Shown here one piece after another: positions 16,901 to 57,364 of a stretch of DNA of 64,000 nt. The position numbers were made by a program, and so were the translations under genes. The notes under the pieces are model-generated. The model had not been told where the DNA came from. It did not search any database and saw nothing but the letters and a program-made list of their open reading frames with translations. Position 1 is the stretch's first letter. Each line of letters opens with the position of its first letter. Source of the stretch: a virus; IMG/VR virus record IMGVR_UViG_3300033182_000652, positions 1 through 64,000 of that record. One strand, written 5' to 3'.

Positions 16901-19900
16901 CTGATCGGAAGTTTCCAAAAATTTGAGTTTCCAAATACTGAAAGTAACCGGTAGGGACATACTCTTGCCTTCTTTCATTTAGACCCCCTCTCCTTGAAAG
17001 AACGGTCGAATCACTGCCGCTGAGCGCAGCGAAAAAATAGGTAGGGTTAATCGTATTATCTCCGGGTGTGCTCGACTTTTTAAACACGATTTCTAATAAG
17101 TCTTGATCAGTCATGTTTGCACTGACAGGAACCGGACTGCCACTATTGTTAATTGAGTCGCCATCTGAAACGCTGGAGCGGAACAAAACCTTTGGATCTA
17201 ACATCATTGTGCCGCCACGCACTGCCCCAGGACTTATCAACCCAACTTCCTTATCATTAAACTCAAGTCTCGCCTCTTCCGTAAGATACCCTAAACCGAA
17301 TCGCTCAAAGACTTTATCGTTAACAGCAGCAACAGCAGTTTCTTTATCAGCGTCGGGCAGGTCACTAAGTCGCTGTACATCAGGGAACTCTTCTAAAACT
17401 TCTGAGACTATTGAGCCGATTTCGGCTTCCGCCTCCTCAGTCATAACACCCCGAGACTTAACAACCCCATCAGAGTCGATCATAACTGGAGACAAATCTT
17501 CCAAAGCTAACTTGCGGGCCAAACGTCGCTGCTCGCCAGGAATAAGAGATCCATAACTGGGACGTAATTCGGGAGGAGAATCAGCATGAACACCCATCAT
17601 CGACGCTTCAAAGCCCTCACGCACACTACCCGGTCCGCCCGAACTAGATCCCGATCTCACCTCGGGGAAATGGCTATTTTTATTAATACCGTCCCTGAAA
17701 ACATCTCGTATATAATCAGAATCAACCACCACAGTAGTGTCAGGATCATCAAAAATGTTTCGCAAATAATCAACAACAAGCTGCTTACGTTCTTCAAAAG
17801 TCAAAGATTCATACGTCTCAATAAAGTCTTTACGCCAAGCAAGCTCCCGATTTTGGGAAGGAGTGTCCCACGTATCTGGCCTTTCTCTTATACGTTCCTC
17901 CATTGTTTTGATCTGCTCTTCATTCTCAGCCATAAGGCGACCAAAAACACTATCCAACTGGGCATCATCAAGAGGTTTACCTTGACCAAAACGGATGGTA
18001 TTACCCCTCGGAAGATTAGCCGTACGACGCTCCTCCCACTCCTCAGGAGAAAGCTTATTCATCCGCTCAAGACTAAAACCATACGAAGCAAGCTCCTCCA
18101 AAATACGGGCATTATTCGCCATAACAGGATCATCCGCCGTAGCAGCATCCAACTCGCCCGCATCAGCAAACCCCAACTGGCGGGCAATATCGTCACGAGT
18201 CACCGGATCAGGAACATACCCATCCATATGAACATGCAACCCATCCCGCACCGGAATCTCCTCACCACCATCAAGACCCTCAGCACCCATAACAACCATT
18301 TCAGAAACCGCATCATCCGAATCAGCACGCAACTGATCAGACAAACCACGCAACTCCGCCAAACGCTCCTTCTGCCGCAAAAACTCAGCAACCTTACCAT
18401 CATACTCAGCAAAATCTTCACGCTGACGCTCCAACCCCGCAACAGGATCAAGACCATCCAACGGCACATCATTCTCATCCATATAATCCAACAAACGCCA
18501 CAACACCTGACCCGTCATCTCCGAATCAGCATCAGCCGTATGCCACGAAAAATCCTCCAACCCGAAAAACTCCTGCAACTTCTTCAACGACGCACTACCC
18601 GGACCATCCTCAATCCCAGCACGCTTAGCAATATTGCCCAAACCCATCGTGTCAAAATACGTCACCTCATCCAAATCAAACGACGGCACACCATCAGGAT
18701 CATGACGCTGACGCTCCAACTCCATACGCTTCAAATCAAACGCAGCATTATGCGCCATAAACACCACATCAGAACCATCAGAATCGCCATTAGCAAAACG
18801 CATAAACTCCTGCAACACCGTAGGCATATCAGGCTGCTTCGCCAAAAACTCCGGAGACATAGGCTTACCATCAGCATCAATCAAATTCGCTTGAGACCAA
18901 TCAGACAACTCATCATAATCCACATTCACATACATGGAGAAACGATCAACAAGCACACCATCAACATAAACCACGCCACCCAACTGAACAATACGATCCT
19001 CATCAACCTCATCCGGATCCATACGCCCAGCAGTCTCCGTATCAAAAACCACCACACGCTTACCCTTAAGAAGCTGCGACACCTCTCTCCACGAAGTCGC
19101 CTCAGCCAACTCATCACGCAAACCCGAACCGGCAAGATGCGGAGGAGGAGAGAACGGCGACCTCACACTATCTACAAGCACACCGTCCCTAAACAACTCA
19201 GGTTCGTCTATCTCTGCCTGCGCTAGCTCGCCAAGGATTCGATGATATCTATCTTCCGACGCAGCGTCCGAAAGCATCTGAGACGTGGCTGAAGGATCGC
19301 CAGCAACCCTAGGCAGTAAGCTTCCCCTCGGCTCTCGATCTAACAAACTTTCTGGAGTAGCGGAAGCAATATCTAATTCTTGTCTACCTGCCAAAGCAGT
19401 CAAAGGAGGAAGCTGGTCATCTCGCCAGTTCGGGTCAGACAAAATAAACTTAAGTTCTTCAGGAATAATCTGCTTCGCATAGTTATCAAGCATTTCAGGC
19501 AGATGACTGTCTGTTCCGCTAGTGCCTGCAGGAATTCTTCGATTGCCTAAAACCTGGGAAGAAATCACTTCTGCCAACGTTTCGACCCGATCAGTCGTAG
19601 TTATTTTATCTTGAATCTTTGAAGGTATAATCTTGCTATCCCTTTTGTACCCGAACCTCTGGGCAATATAGTCCGAATTTGAATCGTACCCTAAAATAGA
19701 TAGCAAGTAAGCTTGGTTGGAGAACGTAGGAGCCAGCTCCATCTCTTCAGTAAATGCTTCAAGCCACGGCGTGCTCTCATCTATCCACTGTTGTGAAGCT
19801 AGACGGATAGGACTATCTTTAGCTGCAGCATAACTACCACGCTTTCTTTGTCTTTCAAGACTACGTAGCTCACTCTGCATCTGGCGTCGGCGCTTTAACA

Positions 19901-21881
19901 AAGGAAGCTTGCGGACATTGTTTCCTGTGAAGGCGTCTATTTCTGCCGTAATCTTACGGATATCTGCTTCAAGGCGTGATTTGTTCCTAAAGAAAGCATC
20001 CGCACTCAACAACGTATCAATTCTATGAACCGTCTCATGAATAGCTACTTGCTCAAGACCGCTACCTCGAAGTGAAGTGATTTGGTACTGCTTAATATTA
20101 CTCAGCAACTTTGCAATTTCAGGAGTATTCCCCACACCCAAAGGCAACTCTACGCCGTCAGGCCCATCATCAGGACCAAACCTTCTAATAGTTCCATTTT
20201 TACGATCAATAACTAAATGCTCTTCTAAGCCCAACACTCGTGGAGAAAGGGTTAGTACCCCAGTTTTATGGTTGAAGGAACCACCTGCAAAAAGGTTTCG
20301 TTTACCATCGGATTTATCGTAACCAATACGAATTTCTTTAGGCCGAAACTCGGGACTTAAACCATCCGTTGCGGTTTTAATTTTACGCAACAACCCCTCA
20401 TTCTCCACACCCCCAGGGATATAACTAAGAATACCTGAATCCCCAAAAAGATCCTGAAGTTCAGCATCAAATTTTACTTCAATGTCTCTCGGAGTAGTAG
20501 CGTCTTTAAGCTCAGCTGTTAACTCCGATAAACGCACACGAAACTGGTCAGCCAACACATGATCGCCTTCAGAATCAAGTCGCTGAATCTCAAGCTCCGC
20601 AATTTCTATATCTCTCAAAACTTGAGTGATCACATCAAAGTCCTGATATTGCCCACTCAACTCACCAGCACGCTCAACAAACCTACTGTCAGAAGTTATC
20701 TCTTTGCTCGAACTAATACCAATACGCTTATCAGCACGCCTCGCTGCTTTATCAGAAAGAGTACGAATCGCTTCGCCAGCAATATCGTCAGTTTTACGTC
20801 TAAAAGTGTAACCTGTCAGATAATCATAATCTTTAAATTCACGACTCTTTCTAAACAAATTATCTAGCAGCTCAGGATTATCGACCATGTACTGCAGCTG
20901 ACTATAGTAGCCAAGATGATCTTCAAGCGAAGATGTGTTTTTAGTAAGCCAATCCGCATGATAACGAACTTTGTCAAAATCACGATTAACGTAAGCATCA
21001 ATCAACTCTTTTATGTGGTGATCATGCCAAGTCGTCACAGGAATAGTAGAAACCAGCGTTTGTAAAAGGCGGGCATTATTTTCATCAATTGGCCCGATTA
21101 CATCTGCTACAGATCGGTTCTGTCTACGAGCCTCGGTTTGTAACTCATTTAAACGACTACTAAAAGCAGTAAACGACACTGATCCCCCAAATTTAAGCAT
21201 GTCGCGTAATTCTGCGCCCAACGGTAGGCTCTCATACACCTGCTCCGGAGAATCCATGTAATTACCGAATAAACGCCCCTCCATAGCCAAAAACAAAAAC
21301 TGACGATTACCGACAGCCTTAGCATCCATGTCAGTCACATCTTCAACAGAAATCTTATACAAAGCACGCAGTTTGTCTTGAGTCTCTTGAGTAATCAAAC
21401 CACTCTCAACAGCCTCCGGTAACAAAAGACCAGCTATTTTATCATCAATGTACGCCCGACGCTGATCCAACTTCGTTGTCGCATTAGCCGCATCAAACCC
21501 AGCAAGACGTACATCATCACCAGCATCATCAAAACGAGACTCATCAGCCAAAGAACGCCCCAAAAACCCACGAGGCAAAATGCCACGAGACTCCAAAAGC
21601 GAAGGCGAATCATCACCCAACGTCCCCAAAGACCCACCCAACGTGGAAGAATCAGTATCTCTAAACGACGGCGTAAAATCCCAAACAGACCCGTCAGCAC
21701 GAACAAACTCTACCCGATCACGATCAACCTGACCGTACTCGCTCCAAATCTCACCCGTGTCAATAAAGCGCAAATACGCCCCTTTAGGGCGCTCCCAAAT
21801 CGTTCCATCCTGAACAAGACCATCAAGGTCACCGTCACGAGGAAACGGCACAAAAGGTACAACACGAGGTTTCCTAGCCAT
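13911..21881 (-). CDS. Giant polyvalent protein: metallopeptidase-like, DnaQ exonuclease and two ADP-ribosyltransferase-like domains
   Basis: A 2656-aa protein. N-terminus (about 10-70): DGDLDGLVQDGTIWERP segment common in large actinophage proteins. Residues ~540-800: zinc-peptidase-like region with HETVH (His615, Glu616, His619) and a downstream acidic helix TLAEVISSQ. Residues ~940-1130: DEDDh 3'-5' exonuclease with VVVFDTETAG (Asp947, Glu949), AHNAAFDLKRME and WHTADADSE. Residues ~1960-2075: ADP-ribosyltransferase of R-S-ExE type, LYRGL (Arg1966), SWTSRLD, EQEVVV (Glu2065/Glu2067). Residues ~2220-2330: second, PARP/KptA-like ADP-ribosyltransferase with VFHGTT (His2226) and AVYTSET. Such fusions, called polyvalent proteins, are thought to enter the host with phage DNA and modify or cut host targets. 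It lies between connector and sheath genes. Domain calls rest on motifs seen by eye; substrates are unknown. Confidence 0.78.
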   Translation of the reverse strand: MARKPRVVPFVPFPRDGDLDGLVQDGTIWERPKGAYLRFIDTGEIWSEYGQVDRDRVEFVRADGSVWDFTPSFRDTDSSTLGGSLGTLGDDSPSLLESRGILPRGFLGRSLADESRFDDAGDDVRLAGFDAANATTKLDQRRAYIDDKIAGLLLPEAVESGLITQETQDKLRALYKISVEDVTDMDAKAVGNRQFLFLAMEGRLFGNYMDSPEQVYESLPLGAELRDMLKFGGSVSFTAFSSRLNELQTEARRQNRSVADVIGPIDENNARLLQTLVSTIPVTTWHDHHIKELIDAYVNRDFDKVRYHADWLTKNTSSLEDHLGYYSQLQYMVDNPELLDNLFRKSREFKDYDYLTGYTFRRKTDDIAGEAIRTLSDKAARRADKRIGISSSKEITSDSRFVERAGELSGQYQDFDVITQVLRDIEIAELEIQRLDSEGDHVLADQFRVRLSELTAELKDATTPRDIEVKFDAELQDLFGDSGILSYIPGGVENEGLLRKIKTATDGLSPEFRPKEIRIGYDKSDGKRNLFAGGSFNHKTGVLTLSPRVLGLEEHLVIDRKNGTIRRFGPDDGPDGVELPLGVGNTPEIAKLLSNIKQYQITSLRGSGLEQVAIHETVHRIDTLLSADAFFRNKSRLEADIRKITAEIDAFTGNNVRKLPLLKRRRQMQSELRSLERQRKRGSYAAAKDSPIRLASQQWIDESTPWLEAFTEEMELAPTFSNQAYLLSILGYDSNSDYIAQRFGYKRDSKIIPSKIQDKITTTDRVETLAEVISSQVLGNRRIPAGTSGTDSHLPEMLDNYAKQIIPEELKFILSDPNWRDDQLPPLTALAGRQELDIASATPESLLDREPRGSLLPRVAGDPSATSQMLSDAASEDRYHRILGELAQAEIDEPELFRDGVLVDSVRSPFSPPPHLAGSGLRDELAEATSWREVSQLLKGKRVVVFDTETAGRMDPDEVDEDRIVQLGGVVYVDGVLVDRFSMYVNVDYDELSDWSQANLIDADGKPMSPEFLAKQPDMPTVLQEFMRFANGDSDGSDVVFMAHNAAFDLKRMELERQRHDPDGVPSFDLDEVTYFDTMGLGNIAKRAGIEDGPGSASLKKLQEFFGLEDFSWHTADADSEMTGQVLWRLLDYMDENDVPLDGLDPVAGLERQREDFAEYDGKVAEFLRQKERLAELRGLSDQLRADSDDAVSEMVVMGAEGLDGGEEIPVRDGLHVHMDGYVPDPVTRDDIARQLGFADAGELDAATADDPVMANNARILEELASYGFSLERMNKLSPEEWEERRTANLPRGNTIRFGQGKPLDDAQLDSVFGRLMAENEEQIKTMEERIRERPDTWDTPSQNRELAWRKDFIETYESLTFEERKQLVVDYLRNIFDDPDTTVVVDSDYIRDVFRDGINKNSHFPEVRSGSSSGGPGSVREGFEASMMGVHADSPPELRPSYGSLIPGEQRRLARKLALEDLSPVMIDSDGVVKSRGVMTEEAEAEIGSIVSEVLEEFPDVQRLSDLPDADKETAVAAVNDKVFERFGLGYLTEEARLEFNDKEVGLISPGAVRGGTMMLDPKVLFRSSVSDGDSINNSGSPVPVSANMTDQDLLEIVFKKSSTPGDNTINPTYFFAALSGSDSTVLSRRGGLNERRQEYVPTGYFQYLETQIFGNFRSDEVIAAEIPNATLEERKKLGIPEGIPDLTPESEVAAIKAQRAAERAGQSIDAVAADAAATIDDLDDAGDEVVSFMARSSDDIDPNFGLPPGPDSPTEWDRERLSNADRLDGFTQPPTNISALDGEGLREDQKSLNRFVAEAATEEDLVPLQEALRQAVEDEGSPLYLEAERGSLGDEKTFKVIQALDDLIAFRSSSDESADQQQRIREAEEELAIQLRNAIGHHWGSARSEVFHWDFLSERVQTVLGDEFGVSIQHERRESPSDFESIRNLQEALAPFVDAWARSQYSATQQYLKENDITEVNLYRGLFIPRSKSSEVPRGTTTDRGVPRARGLQSWTSRLDTALLFLGNKYETAKDEIQKIKDSGEDLGMPEHVLLHDVVPAELIFGFASDAHKESFRFGISVEQEVVVLGGSSRRVNMLGDDFLDLHREPSGNFIIDREESAFRLSEDAVFDYLSSDAKITQLGNLSSADELTGVDDLTASVERIQEQFALQDLETRLDSGSRIFYDMETDLYFALDDSGDGPTEIETFESFDDFVYSIDTSELEEQALQDWRENDAKRTVVFHGTTAEALETIRTEGLDPRSDTRGIVNRGVGDAVYTSETADVAEASYDVVVEIDLPRAIEDGVISVDSLDREPDVIRNEVLTGIASSFAVDDFVPEESIDGTRPDTVVISDRIPPEYLLVNGEPLVPQSVSKATLPDSVGRETFSGSAITPRSLEEVKDTLYYLIGSQDFEEAERVSGMSREEFEAELTSRVSKYLADSLKDGSLSMRMPGSGLRELIAGDGRFKNQFETGRSQAYFDPSFRRALEEGLGVDETVEGALRPKYGYVEGTIWDEAETRNILQGYGDVNVRFKDEVADRTTVSFGDTLDDRVFGVRISDLRDGSVDPERLGNAIEEFSIANVWLENETNLNSGGESIYAELQFHGILGLEDVDEIVFTTGTKKFETREEADAFFKVIQDAGITLKFGDVEALEEVVTAEYLYDYLVVDPESAR

Positions 21882-46918: not shown

Positions 46919-48235
46919 ATGTCTAACGAGGCTCCAGACTGGAACAAAATTCGGCAATACTTGGAACCGAAACGTTCCGAATATTGGATCGAAGAGCCGT
47001 CGATCACACAAAAAGTCTTCCTAAAAAGCACCGCACAAGAAGTACTTTTTGGTGGAGCAGCAGGCGGCGGCAAATCTAGCGCCCTTATCATGGCTGCCCT
47101 ACAGTACGTCGATGTTCCCGGTTACAGCGCAATCCTGTTTAGGCGCACATACGCTGACCTTGCACTACCCGGCGCTCTCATGGACCGCTTCCGAGATTGG
47201 ACCATGCACTACGACGACGTTCATTGGAATGCCAACAGCTACACAGCCACGTTCCCTAGCGGAGCCAGAGTAACATTCGGTTACCTCAACAACGTCAACG
47301 ACTACCTCAGATACAAGGGTTCCGAGTTCCAATTCATCGGAATGGACGAGGTAACAGAAATCAGAGAGTCTGACTACCGTTACATGTTCTCCCGTCTTCG
47401 CCGTCCGGCATCAGGCCCGCTGGCTCAAGTCCCGTTGAGAATGCGGGCAGCCACAAACCCTGCACCTAACTGGGTACGTCAGCGATTCCTTGTTGAAGGC
47501 AAAGATCGTGGAAGAATCTTTATCCCGTCCATGCTAACAGATAACCCCGGCATCGACCCCGCCTCTTACCGGGCCGTTCTTCAAGAGCTAGACCCTGTTG
47601 AGCGGAAGCGGCTTGAGTTCGGTGACTGGTGGTCAACCGCTCTAGGATCACTTTTCAATCGCGAAAGTTTTGAGATCATAGATGACAGCGAAATCCCATC
47701 GTTCTCTAACGATACACAAATCGTAAGATTCTGGGACTTAGCTGGCTCAGAACCAACACAATCTAACCCAGACCCTGACTGGACAGTTGGTTGTCTCGGA
47801 GCGTTTGATAACGGAGTGTTCTACATCTTGGACATTCGCAGAATCAGAGCTAAGGGAGATAAAGTAGAAAAGTTTATTCGAGCCACGGCTGCAGAAGACG
47901 GTCCAGAAATTCCTATTATGATGGAGCAGGAACCAGGGTCTGCAGGTAAAAACCTTATTGACCAATATGCCCGATATGTGCTTCCAGGCTACAACTTTAC
48001 AGGCCAACGTGCTACTGGTGATAAAGCCACAAGGGCAAAGCCACTTTCAGCAGCCGTAGCTAACGGTAACGTTCGCTTAATCCGGGCAGCATGGAACACA
48101 GACTTTCTAGATGAGGTCTCGGCGTTCCCCGAAGCACGTGTGCATGATGACCAAGTGGATGCGACAGTCCACGCTTTCAATCACTGCGCCGGACTGGGTA
48201 TGGGCATTCGCCGTAAAATTGAAATAATTATTTAG
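46919..48235 (+). CDS. terL: Terminase large subunit
   Basis: A 438-aa packaging ATPase/nuclease. Walker A FGGAAGGGKS (about residues 44-53), Walker B FIGMDE (Asp143, Glu144), nuclease domain with FWDLAGSE, IMMEQEPGSAG and DDQVDATVHAF, the three acidic sites of the RNase H-like nuclease. It powers DNA translocation into the prohead and cuts the concatemer. It is the only plus-strand gene between 1 and 60 kb. It starts 41 bp from the divergent head operon and ends overlapping the convergent methyltransferase gene by 4 nt. AAGGA about 10 nt before the ATG. No small terminase was recognised nearby. Confidence 0.93.
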   Translation: MSNEAPDWNKIRQYLEPKRSEYWIEEPSITQKVFLKSTAQEVLFGGAAGGGKSSALIMAALQYVDVPGYSAILFRRTYADLALPGALMDRFRDWTMHYDDVHWNANSYTATFPSGARVTFGYLNNVNDYLRYKGSEFQFIGMDEVTEIRESDYRYMFSRLRRPASGPLAQVPLRMRAATNPAPNWVRQRFLVEGKDRGRIFIPSMLTDNPGIDPASYRAVLQELDPVERKRLEFGDWWSTALGSLFNRESFEIIDDSEIPSFSNDTQIVRFWDLAGSEPTQSNPDPDWTVGCLGAFDNGVFYILDIRRIRAKGDKVEKFIRATAAEDGPEIPIMMEQEPGSAGKNLIDQYARYVLPGYNFTGQRATGDKATRAKPLSAAVANGNVRLIRAAWNTDFLDEVSAFPEARVHDDQVDATVHAFNHCAGLGMGIRRKIEIII

Positions 48236-48822
48236 AGAACGTCCCAGCGGAGATGGGGTCGGAACAAATCCTGGCATACGGCAGCAGGGTCTACCCACCA
48301 GTCTTCATGAATTGTTCGGACAACAAGCGTATACCCGAGAGCATCTAAAATCTCTCTTTGGGCATCACGGATAGACTTGTTCCTAAAATACATGTTGACG
48401 TCGTGCTCAAACGTGATGACTGAGAAACGAAACGTGTTTAAAGGCAGCGAAATCAATCCCAGCAAAGAAGTGTACGCACTGCCTTCAGGTCGCATGGCCG
48501 GATCATAACCATTGTCAATATCTACTTGTAGAAAGTCAATTTGTTTAGGCCACTGAGCAGCCTCAAAAAACTCAGTATAATTAAAAGCTAATGCATCCCC
48601 ATAACAAGGATTTGATCTGTTGCTCACAAACTGATCTCGCCGCTTATCATCAATCTCAAACGAAACACCGTGCCAGCCAAAGTCTTGCTCTAGTACACGG
48701 GTGTTGCTGCCGTCGTGAGAGTGGAAAGCACCAAGTTCTACATAGTGACCGGCCTGCTTCATTTGCGTCATTTCGATGACAAAGTTTTCTTGCTCACTGG
48801 GACTAAATTGCTGAATCTGCAT
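48232..48822 (-). CDS. FkbM-like SAM-dependent methyltransferase
   Basis: A 196-aa Rossmann-fold methyltransferase of the FkbM type: motif I YVELGAFHSHDGSNT, acidic loop FEIDDKRRDQF, FLQVDIDNGYD and VITFEHD. FkbM enzymes usually O-methylate sugars or small molecules, so the target may be a glycan or modified base. A GGAGAG site precedes the ATG at 48822, inside the end of the 2OG-oxygenase gene (20-nt overlap). It is last in the 60-48 kb operon and convergent with terL. Confidence 0.78.
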   Translation of the reverse strand: MQIQQFSPSEQENFVIEMTQMKQAGHYVELGAFHSHDGSNTRVLEQDFGWHGVSFEIDDKRRDQFVSNRSNPCYGDALAFNYTEFFEAAQWPKQIDFLQVDIDNGYDPAMRPEGSAYTSLLGLISLPLNTFRFSVITFEHDVNMYFRNKSIRDAQREILDALGYTLVVRTIHEDWWVDPAAVCQDLFRPHLRWDVL

Positions 48823-49366
48823 TTTTATCTCTCCAAAATTTAGTAGACGACACCTTGATGCCGCCTTTCACTGTGTTACCTTTATGCCTGTAATGGCACC
48901 CAAATAGCACCATCAGATTTTCTTTAGGACTAATCGTTACATCCAGATCAGGAAATACTAGCTCTCCACCACAGTAACCAGCATTCAAGTAGTGTACAGA
49001 ACTAAAAACATGTATTTTTTCTCGCTTCTCCGGATCATCTGCGTTGTGATACATGTCATCGTGTAACCCCATATCGCATCCTTCAGGATAAACCACACCA
49101 GTTAGGTTAGCGGTTGTTGCAGCGTCAAAATCAAAGATTTCCTTCAATGCTTCTGCTATTGACTGACAATAAGTCAAAATGATTTGATCTTCCACGCTAT
49201 CGGGATTGTCCTGGTTGACGACAGGTCGGCTAAAAAAGTTATGGCACCGACCGGGCTTTTCCTCAACCTCCCCCGGACGCGGATTCTGTACCATGTGTAA
49301 CAAATCACGACAATATGGAGAAAAGTCGTGGATCACAACCAAGTCGTCTCTTATGAAGTTAAGCAT
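48803..49366 (-). CDS. 2-oxoglutarate/Fe(II)-dependent oxygenase (prolyl-4-hydroxylase-like)
   Basis: A 187-aa oxygenase. Metal-binding HxD in GCDMGLHDDMYHN, then VFSSVHYLNAGYCGGELVFPD, and the distal His with 2OG-binding part in RHKGNTVKGGIK. It uses 2OG and O2 to hydroxylate a protein, base or small molecule. Similar genes are common in aquatic phages and their substrates are mostly unknown. The start at 49366 (MLNFIRD) overlaps the DUF932 stop by 8 nt; an ATG at 49387 is also in frame. Confidence 0.8.
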   Translation of the reverse strand: MLNFIRDDLVVIHDFSPYCRDLLHMVQNPRPGEVEEKPGRCHNFFSRPVVNQDNPDSVEDQIILTYCQSIAEALKEIFDFDAATTANLTGVVYPEGCDMGLHDDMYHNADDPEKREKIHVFSSVHYLNAGYCGGELVFPDLDVTISPKENLMVLFGCHYRHKGNTVKGGIKVSSTKFWRDKNADSAI

Positions 49367-50300
49367 CTCGGACCGCATTAAATACATTTACTTTAATACG
49401 ATGGCTAAAGTTGTCTAACTCTAACGAATGCTGTGCCGCTTCAATAGCCGGAATGTCCCTATGAAAATCTATGTATTCCATAATAGCACTGTAAGCAGCC
49501 CATTTCGTATCACCAAATCTACCGAGGTTATGTGGCTGACGATAAATCATCTTGATCTTCTCATGAACATCTTCGGCATTAGAACGCTTCTTAGCAGAAG
49601 AAGCGCCCTGCGTTGACCAAAACTTTTCCATTACCCCGAACAGCTTATCAGAAGACATATGAGAAGATGTGAATTCACTAATGATAAGATCAAGCTTCTC
49701 AGACCAAATCTGACGCATCGTGAGAGCTTCTGTCGCATCCATAGGATCAATAGTCTCATTAGGGGTGTGACGCTTACGTAAACTGAAATCAGCATCGGAG
49801 GAAAAACGATACACGGAATTGGTTTCCGCTCGCACATCCAGATTGTAGTAACACACCGGCATACTTCCATCGTGGGAAGTGATAACAACAATGTAGTTAT
49901 CAATCGCATCTTCACCCATGGTAGAAAGAATCGTCGTACTGCTGTGCTTAACAGCTACAAAAAACTTACGGCCTTCTTCCAGCACGCCACAGCTATGTAA
50001 AGATGCTGCGCCGTTTGCCTTCGACACGATATCTCTAGCCCTATCCAAAATGCTAGAGTTGGGCACAACCGAATAACGCTCTTTCACGACTTCCCACATG
50101 ATGCGGTGAGTCTGATCCAAACTAACTCGGTTAATAATAAAGCGGTTAGGAAACGTGACGATCTTACCCATCACATCGTCGTGCATCAATACTGGACTTA
50201 ATGTGACCGTGTAGTCGCCCTTGGACTTCAGCAGAATTTCGTTATTGGACTGCTCCGAAGAAACACGGGTCCCCAGGTCAAGCCAAGACTTATCGCTCAT
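49359..50300 (-). CDS. DUF932-like phage/plasmid protein
   Basis: A 313-aa protein resembling the DUF932 family of phage and plasmid proteins. It has an N-terminal beta-rich part, FPNRFIINRVSLDQTHRIMWEV-type central segments and a C-terminal helical part ending NRPHN-like with AAYSAIMEYIDFHRDIP. The biochemical role of the family is not established. It overlaps the MazG gene by 11 nt. Context suggests a nucleotide- or DNA-related role. Confidence 0.6.
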   Translation of the reverse strand: MSDKSWLDLGTRVSSEQSNNEILLKSKGDYTVTLSPVLMHDDVMGKIVTFPNRFIINRVSLDQTHRIMWEVVKERYSVVPNSSILDRARDIVSKANGAASLHSCGVLEEGRKFFVAVKHSSTTILSTMGEDAIDNYIVVITSHDGSMPVCYYNLDVRAETNSVYRFSSDADFSLRKRHTPNETIDPMDATEALTMRQIWSEKLDLIISEFTSSHMSSDKLFGVMEKFWSTQGASSAKKRSNAEDVHEKIKMIYRQPHNLGRFGDTKWAAYSAIMEYIDFHRDIPAIEAAQHSLELDNFSHRIKVNVFNAVRDA

Positions 50301-50640
50301 CCCCGGACCCCTGAATCATATTACGATCATATCTGTCAAAAAGCTTCTCAATATTTTCTTTAGCAATATCGTTGAAATCAATACCAAGTTCCCAAGCAAG
50401 CACAGCAGCATACCAAAGCACATCACCGATTTCTTTGCTGATAGCAGAGCGGAACACCGAATCAGTATAGTCCCCATCGCTGTCTCTAATGTGCTTCTTC
50501 ACCTTGTCAGCAACTTCACCTGCTTCGCTAGCAAGACCAAGAGTCAAATACTCAACTGCTGATTCCTTGGGGTAAATAGCGGTTGTCTTAGCACCGACCT
50601 GATACGCATTAAATTCCATTCCCATTTTATCTCCTGTCAC
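50290..50640 (-). CDS. MazG-like nucleoside triphosphate pyrophosphohydrolase
   Basis: A 116-aa all-helical protein with the MazG metal sites SEAGEVADKVKK and KEIGDVLWYAA (ExxE...ExxD pattern). Such enzymes hydrolyse (d)NTPs to monophosphates. In phages they may clean non-standard nucleotides from the pool or lower ppGpp. Start ATG 50640 (ATGA overlap with the ParB-like gene). Placed right after a ParB/PAPS-reductase-like set, it could remove unmodified or toxic nucleotides (inference). Confidence 0.85.
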   Translation of the reverse strand: MTGDKMGMEFNAYQVGAKTTAIYPKESAVEYLTLGLASEAGEVADKVKKHIRDSDGDYTDSVFRSAISKEIGDVLWYAAVLAWELGIDFNDIAKENIEKLFDRYDRNMIQGSGDER

Positions 50641-51164
50641 AACGACTCAGGCTCGCCCGTCGGTCGCTCAATCTGAACATTTTCCCCAGTCGCTGATTCA
50701 ATTGGTACCCACGCAGGCGAATACTTATGCTCTCTAATCTTACGCATTTTGATTAACGAACCCTCCATCAGCAACATAAACTCTTCATCTTCTAACCCCA
50801 ACTGCTCTTGAAAGTCTTCAGGGTCAACATCGTTGTCAAAAAATATCTCCCGTAAAAGCTCGGACAAGAACTTATTTACGACAATGCCTCGATTTCGATT
50901 CATACTAACGTGGAGTAGTGCTGCTTCAACATCATCTACATCGACGGTTACAACAGGGATTTCTTGCAAGTCTAGGAGCTTAGCAGCCTTCCAACGATGT
51001 AAACCATCAATAATACATGCAGTAGACTTTTGACATACGATGGGCTGAAGAATCCCAAACTTTTCAATAGAAGCTGTCAATTTTCTAAAGTCCGGCGCAA
51101 CAACATAGTTTACCGAACCCCAAAAAGCTGGTTGTATTCTGTCGGGAGTAACTGAAATATACAT
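50637..51164 (-). CDS. ParB/Srx-like domain protein (IbrB-like), partner of the PP-loop protein
   Basis: A 175-aa protein. Residues ~25-85 are a ParB N-terminal/sulfiredoxin-like domain: LTASIEKFGILQPIVC, ACIIDGLHRWKAAKLLDL, EIPVVTVD. The GxHR motif is the NTP-binding/catalytic site of the fold (ParB is a CTPase; Srx an ATP-using enzyme). The C-terminal half is helical and acidic. It lies 4 bp after the PAPS-reductase-like gene, as IbrB lies next to IbrA in E. coli. Likely works with that protein. Confidence 0.8.
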   Translation of the reverse strand: MYISVTPDRIQPAFWGSVNYVVAPDFRKLTASIEKFGILQPIVCQKSTACIIDGLHRWKAAKLLDLQEIPVVTVDVDDVEAALLHVSMNRNRGIVVNKFLSELLREIFFDNDVDPEDFQEQLGLEDEEFMLLMEGSLIKMRKIREHKYSPAWVPIESATGENVQIERPTGEPESL

Positions 51165-51168
51165 GTGC

Positions 51169-52338
51169 TTAACTTAACCTAAAATCGTCTTGCAAGTCAA
51201 GGCTGTCGGCATCAGCCATGTCCTGATAGAGGGCTTTCATCCTCTTCTTATGTGCAATAGTTTGTGGCCCAACGGGTGAAGGATTACCAACAACAGAATT
51301 GAGTAGCAAAGTTCTTACTAAATGGTCAATCGGGTAAGCGAAAGGATCTTTGTTATGTGACGTTCTAAACTTGTCCGCAAAAGAAAACGCTAAACGACGA
51401 TAGTCAACATCATCAAAATGCGTTTCAATGCACTCTTTAACACCATCCCAACCATTTGCGGCAAACTGATCCACAACTGCCTCAATATCATACTCCCCCC
51501 AAAGTTGGCGCTGAGTATCTATCTCGGGAAACACCTCAACTAGTCGGTCATAAAACTCCGGCTCAGTTTTAACTACGTCAGTCAGCCTTCTAGCTGCCGT
51601 AGAAAACAAAGGCGTACCAACCCGTTGATTTGCACCACCTAACATGGCGTAATCATAGTACTTGCAGTAAGAAGCACCGTGTTCTTCAGTGATAAACTTC
51701 AGAACATCATCAGAAGTCCAATCGTAAATCACTTTAGCAAACCTCAATGGTATTGCTTTAGGCAAGCCTTGAGGACGATTGATATAATTTTCGTGAAGCT
51801 TCTGAGTAACGGATCGGTAACGAACCATTGACTCATTCGCCCTTACCCCGGTAATAAACGCAGTACGGCCACGCTTCCCCTGCATTGTATACTCATCTAT
51901 TCGTTTAGGAAGAGGTAGATTGCCAGACAACCCAAAGTGCTCGGCTCGAATACAGTTCGGCGGGAAGTCTCGGACCAGCATGCCACACTCTTCCCGAAAC
52001 GCAGACCACAGTAAAACCAGTTCACGGGTACCCATGTACCAAACCTCTTGCAACTGAGGAAGGCAGTACCATTCCATGTCCACCCAGTCATAGTTACTTA
52101 CTTTAGTAACAAACTCTTCCGCCGCAGGCGAAATAATTTCTTCGTCACGAAAAATCGCTTTGACAGGTCCAAGCCCGCGCTCTTCATGAACCTCTTTCGC
52201 AAGATACAACGCAGCGGTGCTATCTTTACCGCCACTAAACTGAACACAAACCGTGTCAAAAATATCGTAGACGTGACGAATCCGCTGCCTAGCGGCCTCT
52301 ACACAGTTTATGTCCAGATACATTTGCTTACGAGGCAT
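51169..52338 (-). CDS. PAPS-reductase-like PP-loop ATP pyrophosphatase (IbrA/DndC-related)
   Basis: A 389-aa protein. The PP-loop VCVQFSGGKDSTAALYLA (residues 31-48) is diagnostic for the adenine nucleotide alpha hydrolase/PAPS reductase superfamily. Further conserved parts are RGRTAFITGVRANESMVR, PLRFAKVIYDWTSDDVLKFI, and Cys residues at CGMLVRDFPPNC that may bind metal or carry sulfur. True assimilatory PAPS reductases have a C-terminal ECGLH, which is not seen here. The closest architectural parallels are IbrA and DndC, acting in regulation or DNA phosphorothioation. It is flanked by two ParB-like genes. Substrate unknown. Confidence 0.82.
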   Translation of the reverse strand: MPRKQMYLDINCVEAARQRIRHVYDIFDTVCVQFSGGKDSTAALYLAKEVHEERGLGPVKAIFRDEEIISPAAEEFVTKVSNYDWVDMEWYCLPQLQEVWYMGTRELVLLWSAFREECGMLVRDFPPNCIRAEHFGLSGNLPLPKRIDEYTMQGKRGRTAFITGVRANESMVRYRSVTQKLHENYINRPQGLPKAIPLRFAKVIYDWTSDDVLKFITEEHGASYCKYYDYAMLGGANQRVGTPLFSTAARRLTDVVKTEPEFYDRLVEVFPEIDTQRQLWGEYDIEAVVDQFAANGWDGVKECIETHFDDVDYRRLAFSFADKFRTSHNKDPFAYPIDHLVRTLLLNSVVGNPSPVGPQTIAHKKRMKALYQDMADADSLDLQDDFRLS

Positions 52339-52343
52339 GCGAC

Positions 52344-53126
52344 TTACTCCAAATGCTGGTTAAAGAAATCAAACAAAAGCTCCGTCGTTGTAGCGCCCTC
52401 ATATGCAGGACTTTCCTTCAACTTGTGAAGAATCCTATACCACCCAGCCTGCTGATCGGTGTTTTCAAAAACAAGAGTAAACTGAATAGCGACGTTCTTG
52501 CTGCCCGAAGCCCCAACGGTCGTACTGCCTTGAGTTACGATCGTGTCAGTACTTACACCTTCAGGATTAAACGTCTGAGTCGGAGCGTCATCTTTGCCGT
52601 CGCTTACAAAAGCAGGCAAGTTATTTTCTTCAGGAACCCTGTTTACCGTAATCTGTGGAGCAGTCCAACCATCGTTAGGAGCGCTTGATACCTGTGAAGA
52701 AATTACATTGTTTTCGATCGTGGCAATCGAAAAATCATCCCAACCGAGGGTGCTGTAAAAATCTTCGTCCAGGCTAACAGCATCCGACAGCAAGTCGATA
52801 AGAGCGCTTTCATCAGTCTCACCAAGCTCGGAAATCCTATTGTCTGCCAACGAGAAGGCGAGGGCGTCTTCTGAATCTAAATCAACGATGGACACAGCAA
52901 TTTCTTGCCAACCCAAACGCTTAGCTGCCTCTAGCTGATGATTTCCTGCGATAACTAAGAGCTTGTCGTCATCTTCCACGGCGACAATTGGCTTTACTTG
53001 CCCAAACTTGTTGTAAGACGCCATGATTGCTTCAACGTTGCCACGACGTGCGTTAACCTCAAGAGGCTTCAGTAGCTCAATGTCTACAGCTAGGGACTGA
53101 ATGTTTGAAGCGATGTTATGGATCAT
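52344..53126 (-). CDS. ParB-like protein, second copy
   Basis: A 260-aa protein. ParB-like domain at residues ~10-95: KPLEVNARRGNVEAIMASYNKFGQVKPIVA, VIAGNHQLEAAKRLGW, IAVSIVD, AFSLADNRISELG. It has GNHQ where the other copy has GLHR; this is the variant seen in DNA-modification-associated ParB proteins. After a helical linker (~100-215) comes a beta-rich C-terminal domain (VAIQFTLVFENTDQQAGWYRILHKL). The ATG at 53126 overlaps the methyltransferase stop (ATGA); an upstream in-frame start would add residues from the overlapping gene. Together with 51169 and 50637 it forms a three-gene set. Confidence 0.78.
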   Translation of the reverse strand: MIHNIASNIQSLAVDIELLKPLEVNARRGNVEAIMASYNKFGQVKPIVAVEDDDKLLVIAGNHQLEAAKRLGWQEIAVSIVDLDSEDALAFSLADNRISELGETDESALIDLLSDAVSLDEDFYSTLGWDDFSIATIENNVISSQVSSAPNDGWTAPQITVNRVPEENNLPAFVSDGKDDAPTQTFNPEGVSTDTIVTQGSTTVGASGSKNVAIQFTLVFENTDQQAGWYRILHKLKESPAYEGATTTELLFDFFNQHLE

Positions 53127-53737
53127 GACGGCGCATACCCCATAACTGCACACTGCCAATGCCAATAACCAACGACAGGCCAAGTGATATTGTTTTCATT
53201 ATCCTTCCAAGATTTCATTCCGACGTTTTTCTCCACTTTATCGGTAAACACATTACACTCATCAAATACTGTAGACATTATTGAAAGCATTCTCTTTTCA
53301 TGACAGTTCCAGTGATGAGCAGCACCGTCCCACCACTCGGGGGTATTTGTGGAGTAGGCATCAGAATTTATGAACGATGTATACCCTCCGTACACGTCCT
53401 GATGCTCCATAACGGATTCAACCATATGCCAAGGCTCTTCACCGTTTTTCCAGCGTTGTATAGTTCTATAAACATCTGGACCCACAGCAAGTACAGGAGC
53501 ATTAGGTTTAGCAATCCTATTCATATCCTGTAAGAAAGGAAGAACGTCGTGCCAATCAATATGCTCCAGAACGTGGCCAAGAAATATGGCGTCAAAAGTA
53601 TCATCATCGAATGGGTATGGCTGACCGGGTTCTACAAGAACATCAGGCTTAGTCGCATGATCCTCCCAAACGTCTGTGTTTGTCCATCCTTCAGCGTAGT
53701 GTGTACCACATCCCACATTAAGTAGCTGCTTTTCCAT
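53123..53737 (-). CDS. Class I SAM-dependent methyltransferase
   Basis: A 204-aa protein with LLNVGCGTHYAEGWTN (motif I), PYPFDDDTFDAIFLGHVLEHI (motif IV-like) and FLQDMNRIAKPNAPVLAVGP. This is the pattern of small-molecule/sugar methyltransferases (Methyltransf_11-like) rather than DNA adenine or cytosine enzymes, as DPPY or PCQ motifs are absent. It sits before the ParB/PP-loop set in the same operon. The start at 53737 has a GGAGAACGAC upstream. Substrate unknown. Confidence 0.8.
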   Translation of the reverse strand: MEKQLLNVGCGTHYAEGWTNTDVWEDHATKPDVLVEPGQPYPFDDDTFDAIFLGHVLEHIDWHDVLPFLQDMNRIAKPNAPVLAVGPDVYRTIQRWKNGEEPWHMVESVMEHQDVYGGYTSFINSDAYSTNTPEWWDGAAHHWNCHEKRMLSIMSTVFDECNVFTDKVEKNVGMKSWKDNENNITWPVVGYWHWQCAVMGYAPS

Positions 53738-53746
53738 GTCGTTCTC

Positions 53747-54097
53747 CTAAAACTTGACTTGTGATCTTACGTTTGCGGCAATCGTACGCAAAGCATCACA
53801 TGCCGTTCGTAGCGAATGAAGACGTTCACGCTTTGCCTTAACCAAGGCTTCAGCGATCATTGAATCGTACTGAAGATCACTTGTCTTGTAACCCGCCCAG
53901 CTTTCTTTCTGCTTAACAGCGCCTTCCGCTGCTAAATATTCTTTGTACCAAGCACTCTTATAGGACGCTTCTTTTTGGGCATGATCCTTACACAGGATCT
54001 CAAACGCTTCAGTTTCTTGCTCAATTTCGCCAATCAAGCGGACAAGTTCAGACTCAACTTCAACCTGACTGATTGGCGCAGTTCTCGTACTATTCAT
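53747..54097 (-). CDS. Unknown coiled-coil protein
   Basis: A 116-aa, all-helical, charged protein (EVESELVRLIGEIEQETEAF, AKRERLHSLRTACDALRTIAANVRSQ). The YDSMIAEALVKAKRE segment is frequent in small early phage proteins next to recombination genes. No enzymatic motif. It lies between an HNH nuclease gene and the methyltransferase gene. Confidence 0.55.
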   Translation of the reverse strand: MNSTRTAPISQVEVESELVRLIGEIEQETEAFEILCKDHAQKEASYKSAWYKEYLAAEGAVKQKESWAGYKTSDLQYDSMIAEALVKAKRERLHSLRTACDALRTIAANVRSQVKF

Positions 54098-54488: not shown

Positions 54489-55388
54489 TCACAACGGAAT
54501 GTTTTGGTTGATTGGGAAGAACCATCCACCACCATCATACTGATGCGCTTGCGGCATATCGGGACGATGATTCACACCCGAATAATGAAGAATTGCTGTC
54601 TCTCGCCACAAGTCAGGATTGTTTGGAATAGAGCCACGATGCATCAAACGAGCATGCCAAATCAACACATCACCCTTCTTGGCAATAAACTTTTCAGTCT
54701 CAAGATTGCCGCGATTTAGGATATCTTCAAACATGGGAGTGAGGAAACGCTCCGAGTACTTAGGCCAGTTAGGATCATCTCGCTCATGCGGCTCTAGCCT
54801 AGCCATCGTCGCATCTTGAGTAATCACAGGAAGAACATGACTGCCCGGAACATACTCAAATGGACCAGAATCCTCGTGCACGTCATCCAACGCAACCCAC
54901 ACAGCCAAGTAATGATCTTTATTAGTGTCCGGATTCAAGTAGCCGTCCTGATGCCAGTTGCGTTGTGTGGACTTCCAGCCAGTCAAGTTCAAATGAATAC
55001 CCATCTGATCGCCAATAAGATGCTCAAGGATATTATGCAATGGGGCGTAAGTGGCGATGTTCATTAGGCTTTCTACCTGAAAGTAAGCACACTCGCCAGG
55101 GTAACCCAAAGGGCGGTCGTGGTTGACACGATTGTGTTGAATCCAGTCTTGGCGGTATGCTTCAATCATGTCGTCAGGAATCAACGAGTCAACGATTACA
55201 ACACCGTTCTGGCGCCACCCCTGCTGAATATTAGACAGGAACGCTTCGTTAACATTCTCCCTATCTAGAAATGGAAGATCGCTATCAGCGAATCCTCCAG
55301 ATAGGCTATTGATTTCATCTAATAGATCAGGATGCTCCGTCAGAGCCGAACCAATAAGGTTCTGCAGGAGTTCCTTTTTTCCAGGCAT
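54489..55388 (-). CDS. Phytanoyl-CoA dioxygenase-like (PhyH) 2OG/Fe(II) oxygenase
   Basis: A 299-aa oxygenase of the PhyH family: iron ligands RNWHQDGYL (HxD) and distal LMHRGSIPNN with a following Arg for 2OG; DDVHEDSGPFEYVPGSH is a family landmark. Such enzymes hydroxylate lipids, small molecules or, in some phages, unknown targets. AAAGGG precedes the ATG at 55388, which supports that start although the gene then overlaps the upstream HNH gene by 62 nt. Second 2OG oxygenase of the operon. Confidence 0.85.
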   Translation of the reverse strand: MPGKKELLQNLIGSALTEHPDLLDEINSLSGGFADSDLPFLDRENVNEAFLSNIQQGWRQNGVVIVDSLIPDDMIEAYRQDWIQHNRVNHDRPLGYPGECAYFQVESLMNIATYAPLHNILEHLIGDQMGIHLNLTGWKSTQRNWHQDGYLNPDTNKDHYLAVWVALDDVHEDSGPFEYVPGSHVLPVITQDATMARLEPHERDDPNWPKYSERFLTPMFEDILNRGNLETEKFIAKKGDVLIWHARLMHRGSIPNNPDLWRETAILHYSGVNHRPDMPQAHQYDGGGWFFPINQNIPL

Positions 55389-55812
55389 TTCTTACCCTTT
55401 CTGCTTCGAGAAAATGCGACATTTTGTTTGATGTGCTTTTTAAATGAAGGCCAAGCATTTCAGAAATTAAAGGTTCTGTAGTTATTCTACTATGACACGG
55501 CCTACACACCGCAAGTAGATTTTCGTGATTCAAGATGCTGCCACCTTGTGATCTGTTTACGAGTTCATGAATGTCTTTACTTCTATGGCGAATAGCGAAC
55601 AGCGATTCACTACTGCCAGTATAGTAGTCGTAAGACGCCCAAACTAGGCAAGCTTCACAATACTGGCGATCAGAAAGCAATTCCTTAACAGTCTTTCGAC
55701 GGTCAACGTACTTTTCAGACATCTTGTCAGAACGCTTCTTTAAAGGCGTTCTCTTTAACTGACTACTTCCACGCTTCAACGGCGTTCTCTTTAAAGGTTT
55801 GCCTCGCTTCAT
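55327..55812 (-). CDS. HNH endonuclease with basic repeat N-terminus
   Basis: A 161-aa protein. N-terminus has three KRTPLKRG-like repeats (strongly basic, DNA-binding). HNH core: CEACLVWASY, DIHELVNRSQGGS, NLLAVCRPCHSRI. ATGA overlap with the glycosyltransferase gene. The end overlaps the PhyH gene by 62 nt in another frame. Third HNH-type nuclease in the window. Specific role unknown. Confidence 0.75.
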   Translation of the reverse strand: MKRGKPLKRTPLKRGSSQLKRTPLKKRSDKMSEKYVDRRKTVKELLSDRQYCEACLVWASYDYYTGSSESLFAIRHRSKDIHELVNRSQGGSILNHENLLAVCRPCHSRITTEPLISEMLGLHLKSTSNKMSHFLEAERVRNAWKKGTPAEPYWFGSDGAS

Positions 55813-56906
55813 CTTGCACGCTTCACTAAGTTATTGATTGTTTTAATAAGACGAGTCGCCCCGATCCTTACATCAAATTTCTTGACCCGCTTCCAATTCA
55901 AATCTGAAATTTCTTGCCGATAATCAACGTCTTGGTACTTCTTCAAAAGCTTTACGAAATCCTTCGGGTCACGAGCAATCTCACCGATGCCATGTACTTC
56001 CGCTAGCTCTTCATACTGAGGTGACCAAGACGCCACAAACGGAACACCTCCACAAGCATACTCAAGACCCTTGATGTAAGACTTGGCATGGTTGAAAGGA
56101 ATATTTGTAAGCGGCACAATCCCTACATCAAAGAGGAAACCCTTCTCCAGCTCATAAGGAGCTAAGAAGGGATGGGTCGTTACACAACCCGCACTAACTT
56201 TAATTTCCTTATGGAACAAAGGAATGTTGGGAGCCTGCATATGTCCAGTATGATGCCACGTAGCAAACTTGCTGATAGAATCTGAATAAGGCTGAAGAAT
56301 CTCCAAATCACCACTTCTATGGGCAGTAGACCCCATCCATCCTACAACCATCTTATCGCTACGTTTTTCGTGAATGCGGCGAGTGGCATACTTTGAACGA
56401 TTCACATAGTTGCCATGCAGCATAGTATTCGGATTCCACTCCTTCATTTTTTGATGAAGAAATGGAGTAGACGTAATGATCCCGTCACACTGCTCCAAAA
56501 TGTTCTTATACCACAAAACATTTTCGTTCTTGTTCAACTCCGGATCTGAAGCTGCCTTGGCCTGATTCTTATCACTAAGACCCCAATACCAATCATCTAC
56601 ATCATTCAAAATGATCTGCCCAGCCGCCTGCGCACGTTTCATATCAGGAAGCACCTGCATATGCATGTAACGCTGCATAACAATCACATCACAATCAAAA
56701 TAGTCATGCCCATCCCACGCATGCACGCCGAACGTTCCGGTCAACTTGTTCTGCGCCAAGATACCAATCACGACATTATAACCAGCGTCACGCAAAGGCT
56801 TAATATACTGCCCAATGCGAATAAAGCCAGAACCGCCAATCACAGGATGCCCCATAGTATCCGTAGCACTACGAGACCAGTCGTTCGTGGCAAACCCAAT
56901 CTTCAT
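55809..56906 (-). CDS. Glycosyltransferase (GT-B, family 4-like)
   Basis: A 365-aa protein. The N-terminal half has IGFATNDWSRS, IVMQRYM, IILNDVDDWYWG, and the C-terminal half MVVGWMGSTAHRSGDLEIL, FDVGIVPLTNIPFNHAKSYIKGLEYACGGVPFVAS, the usual C-terminal nucleotide-sugar site of GT-B enzymes. It transfers a sugar to an unknown acceptor, possibly modified DNA, a capsid protein or a host glycan. The ATG at 56906 shares one base with the previous stop (TAATG). It is near oxygenase genes, as in phages that glucosylate hydroxylated bases. Confidence 0.82.
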   Translation of the reverse strand: MKIGFATNDWSRSATDTMGHPVIGGSGFIRIGQYIKPLRDAGYNVVIGILAQNKLTGTFGVHAWDGHDYFDCDVIVMQRYMHMQVLPDMKRAQAAGQIILNDVDDWYWGLSDKNQAKAASDPELNKNENVLWYKNILEQCDGIITSTPFLHQKMKEWNPNTMLHGNYVNRSKYATRRIHEKRSDKMVVGWMGSTAHRSGDLEILQPYSDSISKFATWHHTGHMQAPNIPLFHKEIKVSAGCVTTHPFLAPYELEKGFLFDVGIVPLTNIPFNHAKSYIKGLEYACGGVPFVASWSPQYEELAEVHGIGEIARDPKDFVKLLKKYQDVDYRQEISDLNWKRVKKFDVRIGATRLIKTINNLVKRAR

Positions 56907-57364
56907 TAGAAACCCCAAACCCCGTCTAACGCTTTATACAAGCAATCATCGCCTTCTGAATTAACCATGTCGTTATCTATATGCCACTGCTTGTGAGCTA
57001 AAATTGCATTTCGCAAAAACGTGGCAAGCGAAAGTTCAGGGTCGGCTTCTTCTCCGAGAGTAAGCAACCTGTCTACTTCGACCAAGCGCTTTTCCGCATA
57101 AAACCGGAACCGTGCGGCTTTGTCACGCTGTTCTTCTAACCCAGCAGCAGGGTCGATCGTGAAGGTAGTGTATGTTCCACGAAGACGAGCAATCTCTTCG
57201 TCCAAACTTGTAATCTTTGCTGTGACTGTTTCAACGATCGTAATTAAAGCGTCTCTCCACTTTAACTGATTCTCTGGCAGACGAAGAAAGTCTTTATCCT
57301 GCTGAGAAGCATTGTTCTTAATATCTTCAGACACCAACATTGCAAAGTTATCGTTCTGCGACAT
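56906..57364 (-). CDS. Unknown helical protein
   Basis: A 152-aa, mostly helical protein (WRDALITIVETVTAKITSLDEEIARLRG, EKRLVEVDRLLTLGEEADPE). GGAGG 10 nt before the ATG at 57364. Encoded between the Cas4-like nuclease and glycosyltransferase genes. No family recognised. Confidence 0.55.
   Translation of the reverse strand: MSQNDNFAMLVSEDIKNNASQQDKDFLRLPENQLKWRDALITIVETVTAKITSLDEEIARLRGTYTTFTIDPAAGLEEQRDKAARFRFYAEKRLVEVDRLLTLGEEADPELSLATFLRNAILAHKQWHIDNDMVNSEGDDCLYKALDGVWGF

Follow-up and report, generated by a model that had tools for sequence, protein, structure and literature searches.

The 64,000-nucleotide stretch of viral DNA analyzed here, hereafter called the window (positions 1 to 64,000 of the 66.5-kb IMG/VR record IMGVR_UViG_3300033182_000652), carries a PP-loop ATP pyrophosphatase gene of the IbrA or “PAPS reductase-like” family between two genes for ParB-like proteins, called herein ParB-a (upstream) and ParB-b (downstream). 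On balance, we favor the view that these three genes form a phage DNA-modification cassette that is ATP-dependent and acts via adenylation. On the minus strand, the order is ParB-a, a 5-nt gap, the PP-loop gene, a 4-nt gap, ParB-b, and then a gene for a MazG-like protein. A first-pass annotation had proposed exactly this arrangement, and its coordinates are exact; hidden Markov model searches bear out its family assignments. The PP-loop protein matches PF01507 (5e-7) and phrog_2302 (1.7e-70, across residues 1-350), ParB-a matches phrog_723 (1.1e-35) and, just under the family cut-off, PF02195 (1e-4), ParB-b matches PF02195 (2.3e-10), and MazG matches PF03819 (4e-11).

The linkage of the three genes, whose absence in relatives would by the first-pass annotation's own standard have refuted its reading, is conserved there and is far beyond chance. 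ParB genes lie on both sides of the PP-loop gene in 70 of 80 close IMG/VR loci (L001-L080), and six more miss one ParB only through the end of the contig. When phage PP-loop proteins were reduced to at most 75% identity to give 37 independent loci, a ParB gene still adjoined the PP-loop gene in 34. Overlaps of 4 nt between the PP-loop and ParB-b genes are common among phage loci. The same order is found in Arthrobacter phage Salgado, Mycobacterium prophi79-1 and Athena, Bacillus 031MP004, Rhizobium RHph_I4, and Faecalibacterium Taranis, with small genes intervening between cassette members in some of them; the open reading frames (ORFs) that separate ParB-a from the PP-loop gene at some loci are mostly small and mutually unrelated. 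Of the three proteins, the PP-loop protein varies least, as the ParBs drop to ~35-44% identity where it is at 62-65%.

Two neighboring genes do not belong to this unit. MazG does follow the cassette in part of the lineage of the window's virus, as first noted, but it is absent at L051-L053 and L059-L080, and the annotations of the named phages do not show it next to the cassette. We therefore reject it as a core part. The upstream methyltransferase is rejected for the same reason, being absent at many related loci. Nor do we infer a conserved methyltransferase partner: Pfam matches are weak or missing for the annotated “methyltransferases” beside the cassette in Salgado, prophi79-1, and Bacillus 031MP004, and the “DNA methyltransferase” of RHph_I4 is a ParB-domain protein, so no shared methylation step is proposed.

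Judged by sequence, the PP-loop protein and ParB-b are an IbrA/IbrB pair, a kinship also recognized in the first-pass annotation. In E. coli and other bacteria, IbrA/IbrB likewise comprise a PP-loop “PAPS reductase-like” gene and a downstream ParB-like gene, with the same invariant PP-loop residues and with the ParB motifs DGxHR, NRaRG, and a C-terminal (Y/F)S.(A/S)W. ParB-b carries the motifs common to bacterial IbrB, namely DG(F/Y/L)HR, NR.RG, and a C-terminal YS.AW. A downstream ParB alone, which is the IbrA-IbrB arrangement, is present at 64 of 80 loci in bacterial genomes. The phage cassette differs in adding an upstream ParB-a of another subfamily, in the low identity to the bacterial proteins (~20-25%), and in the lack of a C-terminal CxC...C motif found in many bacterial homologues. 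We do not take this motif as defining IbrA because it is not universal in bacteria either, occurring in 42 of 79 bacterial homologues (loci L176-L255) and, among phages, in L088 only; it hints that the bacterial protein binds a metal or an Fe-S cluster. IbrA/IbrB-like genes are carried by many phages and bacteria, and to our knowledge their biochemistry is not established.

The evidence that the cassette acts on DNA comes from the company kept by ParB-a. We compared the genes between ParB and the large terminase (TerL) gene in the Bclasvirinae (cluster-B mycobacteriophages) and in relatives with homologous TerL, wherein the genes ahead of TerL at the left end vary. This slot is filled by ParB-DpdA-Que genes (DpdA-QueCDE-FolE) in LizLemon (Rosebush species), Funsized, Quesadilla, and Saguaro, and by a ParB, a Tet_JBP oxygenase (5.5e-6), and ADDT (4.5e-9) in Lolalove. 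In the cluster B3 mycobacteriophages, exemplified by Athena, it holds the two ParBs with the PP-loop gene between them. GNAT/formyltransferase genes are a further content of the slot, and the ParB of the slot in Gordonia phage NHagos matches ParBs of PP-loop cassettes at 42-43% (E 2e-22 to 3e-21). Suffolk (B1) has neither a ParB nor such modification enzymes at this position. Liquid chromatography–mass spectrometry of Rosebush DNA gives dPreQ0 at ~28% of G, and Orion, which has a DpdA homologue only, has no 7-deazaguanine (PMC6884629). Because a ParB of this kind heads the slot in related phages too and is followed there by known modification genes, the cassette probably acts on DNA as well. 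The enzymes themselves are unrelated: Dpd loci, which share the homologous ParB at their head and the position beside the terminase, encode a transglycosylase and preQ0 synthesis, and the thymine hypermodification loci of Lolalove, CloverMinnie, and Tonitrus, also headed by ParB (PMC11955845), encode TET/JBP oxygenases and amino-acid:DNA transferases (ADDT/aGPT), in place of the PP-loop/IbrB pair. Replacement of modification genes by this pair is seen in cluster B and its relatives and was not observed in the window's own lineage.

Ten further ParB-a loci, picked for spread before their neighbors were seen, form a small, actinophage-heavy, and author-selected sample in which nine carry DNA-modification genes. 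These are Dpd genes in Quesadilla, Saguaro, Finch, and Nadezda, a weak Tet_JBP match (6e-4) with ADDT (6e-26) in CloverMinnie, Tet_JBP (1e-6) in Kharcho, the TET-associated glycosyltransferase TAGT (7e-36) in NTR1, Mom (4e-61) in Zartrosa, and, in the same slot of Mycobacterium phage Vincenzo (L261, 1-2275), a ParB fused to an N6/N4-type DNA methylase and followed by a pyridoxal phosphate-dependent enzyme. Finch has no annotated terminase in the stretch where its Dpd set follows ParB, which ties the association to ParB and not to the terminase alone. The tenth locus, in Gordonia phage ChisanaKitsune (L264, 3414-4997), encodes a ParB N domain fused to DUF4417, which by the logic of the slot may be a DNA-modifying or DNA-recognizing domain.

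Two side observations concern these slots. The NHagos slot (L094, 630-2470) encodes two proteins, one with ABC-ATPase-like and GNAT segments and the other with a formyltransferase domain, and is a candidate for another DNA modification. The Athena TerL (L084, 2696-5236; 846 aa) aligns to related TerLs in two pieces only, with an intein-like insertion between them.

The two ParBs of the cassette differ in sequence in ways that place them in separate subfamilies. ParB-a is marked by AGNH(Q/T), ADNR, and a small C-terminal domain with the pattern FD..QQ..WY.F..WL. Its N domain is predicted to be of the CTP-type ParB/Noc kind (Z 13.9 to 7bnr; Noc profile match 6e-15); the fold searches barely cover the C-terminal domain. 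The window's ParB-a also matches the ParB N-domains of DNA methyltransferases, relatives that lie outside cassettes. It had first been suggested that the doubled ParB could be two specificity or NTP (nucleoside triphosphate)-sensing units. This idea is not sustained, given that the pair consists of a general slot-heading ParB and an IbrB partner and not of two copies of one specificity unit.

ParB-a is retained even where it is not a neighbor. Among 12 contigs without ParB-a near the PP-loop gene, each of the four that exceed 70 kb nevertheless has ParB-a at full length (E 1e-101 to 1e-106) at a distance of 20 to 86 kb, in three cases together with phrog_1389 or RuvC-like genes. Among the shorter contigs, G013 has a piece of ParB-a at its end and the others show at most a weak match. 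The PP-loop and ParB-b genes generally remain paired. That ParB-a is kept in the genome though unlinked argues that the association is functional, not merely positional. Three related contigs (L405, L406, and L410) retain ParB-b without the PP-loop gene or ParB-a, and the absence of both suggests joint loss. The orphan ParB-b (~6299-6895) comes after a phrog_1389 gene and is itself followed only by structural genes, so these contigs reveal no alternative cassette in the lineage of the window's virus.

The PP-loop protein retains its presumed active site and lacks the hallmarks of sulfur chemistry. Residues R19, S35-S40, D65, E67, W111, R123, G164, R166, E169, S170, R173, D206, W207, D211, Y228, D229, and R239 are invariant; the conserved motifs are FSGGKDS, D65.E67, G.RA.ES..R, DW...D, and Y..YD, along with R239. 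Among solved structures, a good AlphaFold model (predicted local distance difference test score 89) comes closest to the PAPS-like domain of human FAD synthase (Z 17.9, 3.3 Å, 172 residues), ahead of CysD and the APS/PAPS reductases (Z ~15); profile search likewise gives FAD synthase (E 5e-9). The helical C-terminal domain (~260-389) has no fold-search match, and the searches hardly test that part. Eukaryotic FAD synthase (FMN adenylyltransferase) shares a Y-C-x-x-Y-D type motif, but its C-terminal domain differs and it has no ParB partners. No cysteine is invariant in the PP-loop family or in the window's clade. Phage proteins have zero to nine cysteines (zero in the homologue of phage Hendrix), Cys225 is replaced by Thr in L080 and by Ser in L158, and Ala or Thr stands in place of Cys92 in phages of Arthrobacter and Bacillus and in relatives of these phages. 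The catalytic ECG.H motif of CysH is present in 0 of 117 homologues, the NCBIfam CysH model does not match the window proteins, and the DndC model TIGR03183 scores 17.8 bits against a curated cut-off of 290.4. Given the lack of a conserved cysteine and the failure of the DndC and CysH signatures, adenylation without protein-bound sulfur is the most economical reading, and non-sulfur chemistry is more likely than sulfur transfer, which may nevertheless proceed with sulfur donated by another protein.

We propose that the cassette operates as follows. ParB-a, judging from its ParB/Noc-like fold and its partners, would load on or near phage DNA and serve as a general targeting subunit that brings the enzyme there, as it might do elsewhere for DpdA, TET/JBP, Mom, and glycosyl- and methyltransferases. 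The PP-loop protein would then adenylate its target with ATP, releasing pyrophosphate; that target could belong to the phage DNA itself, as one of its groups, or be a small molecule that is later joined to DNA. The AMP might be left in place, or be displaced by a nucleophile as in FAD synthase, TilS, and GMP synthetase. ParB-b would be the dedicated partner of the PP-loop protein, probably binding an NTP, and would be required for activity or substrate recognition. The resulting mark would protect against host restriction in the manner of 7-deazaguanines (PMC6884629).

Several points weigh against this proposal. Most of the slot evidence comes from actinophages, whose kinship means that they do not count as independent cases. 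ParB-a is normally missing from bacterial IbrA/IbrB (the 64 of 80 loci given above) and is not adjacent to the PP-loop gene in some phages, and ParB-b may have another role, given the three contigs in which it is an orphan. IbrA/IbrB is described solely as a co-activator of prophage genes, and nucleotides instead of DNA could be the substrate of the ParBs. Finally, we found no DNA analysis of any cassette-bearing phage in the literature.

Of the competing explanations, the one that fares best, although we consider it unlikely, is that the cassette works not on DNA but on free nucleotides, signal molecules, or a host protein, which it would adenylate, degrade, or otherwise alter, perhaps as an anti-defense enzyme. 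ParB/Srx proteins include kinases and NTPases (SerK, Srx), FAD synthase acts on a small nucleotide, and MazG adjoins the cassette in the window's lineage. However, MazG is not conserved with the module, and ParB-a is common to DNA-acting enzymes and DNA methyltransferase fusions.

About as unlikely, and marginally less probable, is sulfur transfer to DNA to give a phosphorothioate-like mark or a thio-base, with a DndC-like PP-loop protein, sulfur from host IscS, and ParBs replacing DndB. DndC/DndB also combine a PAPS_reduct domain protein with a protein of the ParB superfamily, to which DndB has been assigned (PMC10853773), the window protein has this Pfam domain and a weak local PADLOC match to DndC (4e-6, residues 157-219), and the authors of PMC8092301, who compared a prophage PAPS reductase with DndC, suggested the same for their gene. 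Yet the substitution of both Cys92 and Cys225 in relatives, the cysteine-free phage homologue, and the missed DndC cut-off all speak against it. Moreover, the 66.5-kb record, which may be a fragment, contains no cysteine desulfurase (Aminotran_5; no DndA), although IscS could be the host's, and no DndD above cut-off. We have thus rejected DndC/CysH-like sulfur chemistry as the main model. The first-pass annotation had envisaged a sulfur- or nucleotide-transfer system acting on DNA, RNA, or a nucleotide pool; the role on DNA gains support from the slots, and sulfur transfer loses it on the grounds just given and because the nearest fold is that of FAD synthase. Nothing points to tRNA modification, and ARAGORN finds zero tRNA genes in the window.

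It is somewhat less likely still that the pair is a regulator that activates prophage or host transcription with its ParBs binding DNA. Records annotate IbrA/IbrB as prophage gene expression co-activators, and the ParB N domains resemble the CTP-gated DNA clamps ParB, Noc, and KorB. Against this, the other slot occupants are DNA-modifying enzymes, a strictly conserved ATP pyrophosphatase site would be superfluous in a plain regulator, and any effect on regulation might follow indirectly from DNA modification. An ordinary auxiliary metabolic gene, in which a CysH PAPS reductase boosts host sulfate assimilation, is very improbable despite the Pfam and PHROG names and the many virome papers that label such genes cysH (e.g., PMC8725595), given the missing ECG.H motif, the lack of a CysH model match, and the linkage to ParB rather than sulfate genes.

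The label “cysH auxiliary metabolic gene” is thus probably wrong for this PP-loop family, and phage IbrA-type copies are routinely counted as such genes of sulfate assimilation. The two ParBs, for their part, usually go under the likewise doubtful name of partition proteins. If the cassettes encode DNA-modification enzymes, then ecological claims about cysH need revising for the IbrA-type family, and a new DNA modification awaits identification. Athena, Akoma, Laroye, and Salgado bear the cassette, and cultured phages that have it exist among the cluster B3 mycobacteriophages and Arthrobacter Laroyevirus. More tentatively, IbrA-type “PAPS reductases” at large could be an unrecognized class of DNA-modifying enzymes that attach a non-sulfur group through AMP activation, with ParB as a plug-in adaptor for many chemistries. 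The ParB-headed slot also offers a simple rule for spotting phage DNA modifications, which is to inspect the genes that follow an AGNHx ParB.

Published reports offer partial parallels. One places ParB within a cluster for thymidine hypermodification (PMC11955845), another next to CmoX and AMP-forming ligases (PMC12783734). The CmoX/CmoY carboxymethylcytosine system resembles the cassette in pairing a phage ATP-dependent, AMP-forming enzyme with ParB-domain genes in DNA-modification neighborhoods (PMC12783734), but CmoY is an asparagine-synthetase homologue and not a PAPS_reduct-domain protein. Phage PAPS-reductase homologues have been said to deserve further investigation (PMC11437467). Our search of an open-access library turned up no report of DNA modification by IbrA/IbrB-type pairs, which does not prove that none exists.

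Table 1. Coordinates of the cassette and neighboring features in the window.
Feature	Positions	Strand	Remarks
ParB-a, upstream ParB	52344-53126	-	260 aa; motif VIAGNHQ; AGNHQ...ADNR subfamily; predicted CTP-ParB/Noc-like N domain, disordered linker, small conserved C-terminal domain
PP-loop ATP pyrophosphatase, IbrA/“PAPS reductase-like” family (phrog_2302)	51169-52338	-	389 aa; FSGGKDS at residues 34-40
SGGKDS PP-loop motif	52219-52236	-	residues 35-40 of the PP-loop protein; from sequence
ParB-b, IbrB-like ParB, PP-loop partner	50637-51164	-	175 aa; IIDGLHR, NR.RG, C-terminal YSPAWVP
MazG-like NTP pyrophosphohydrolase	50290-50622	-	neighbor only in the lineage of the window's virus; not core
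Methyltransf_11-type methyltransferase	53123-53737	-	4-nt overlap with ParB-a; variable neighbor, in part of the related loci
phrog_1389 small protein	53747-54097	-	usually accompanies ParB-a where the PP-loop/ParB-b pair sits elsewhere in the genome
Large terminase	46919-48235	+	context only; opposite strand to the cassette

Terminase, portal, tail sheath, and RecA-like ORFs are recognized directly from the window translations. The phrog_1389 protein is highly conserved (59-100% identity) and is tied to ParB-a and a RuvC-like gene. Around the cassette (48232-49387 and 54489-56918) lie a PhyH dioxygenase, a 2OG-oxygenase-like ORF, a glycosyltransferase-like ORF, and two HNH endonucleases. The large terminase gene is on the plus strand and its neighbors, including portal, are on the minus strand, an inversion conserved in close relatives. 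The structural region contains one ORF of 2656 aa at 13911-21881.

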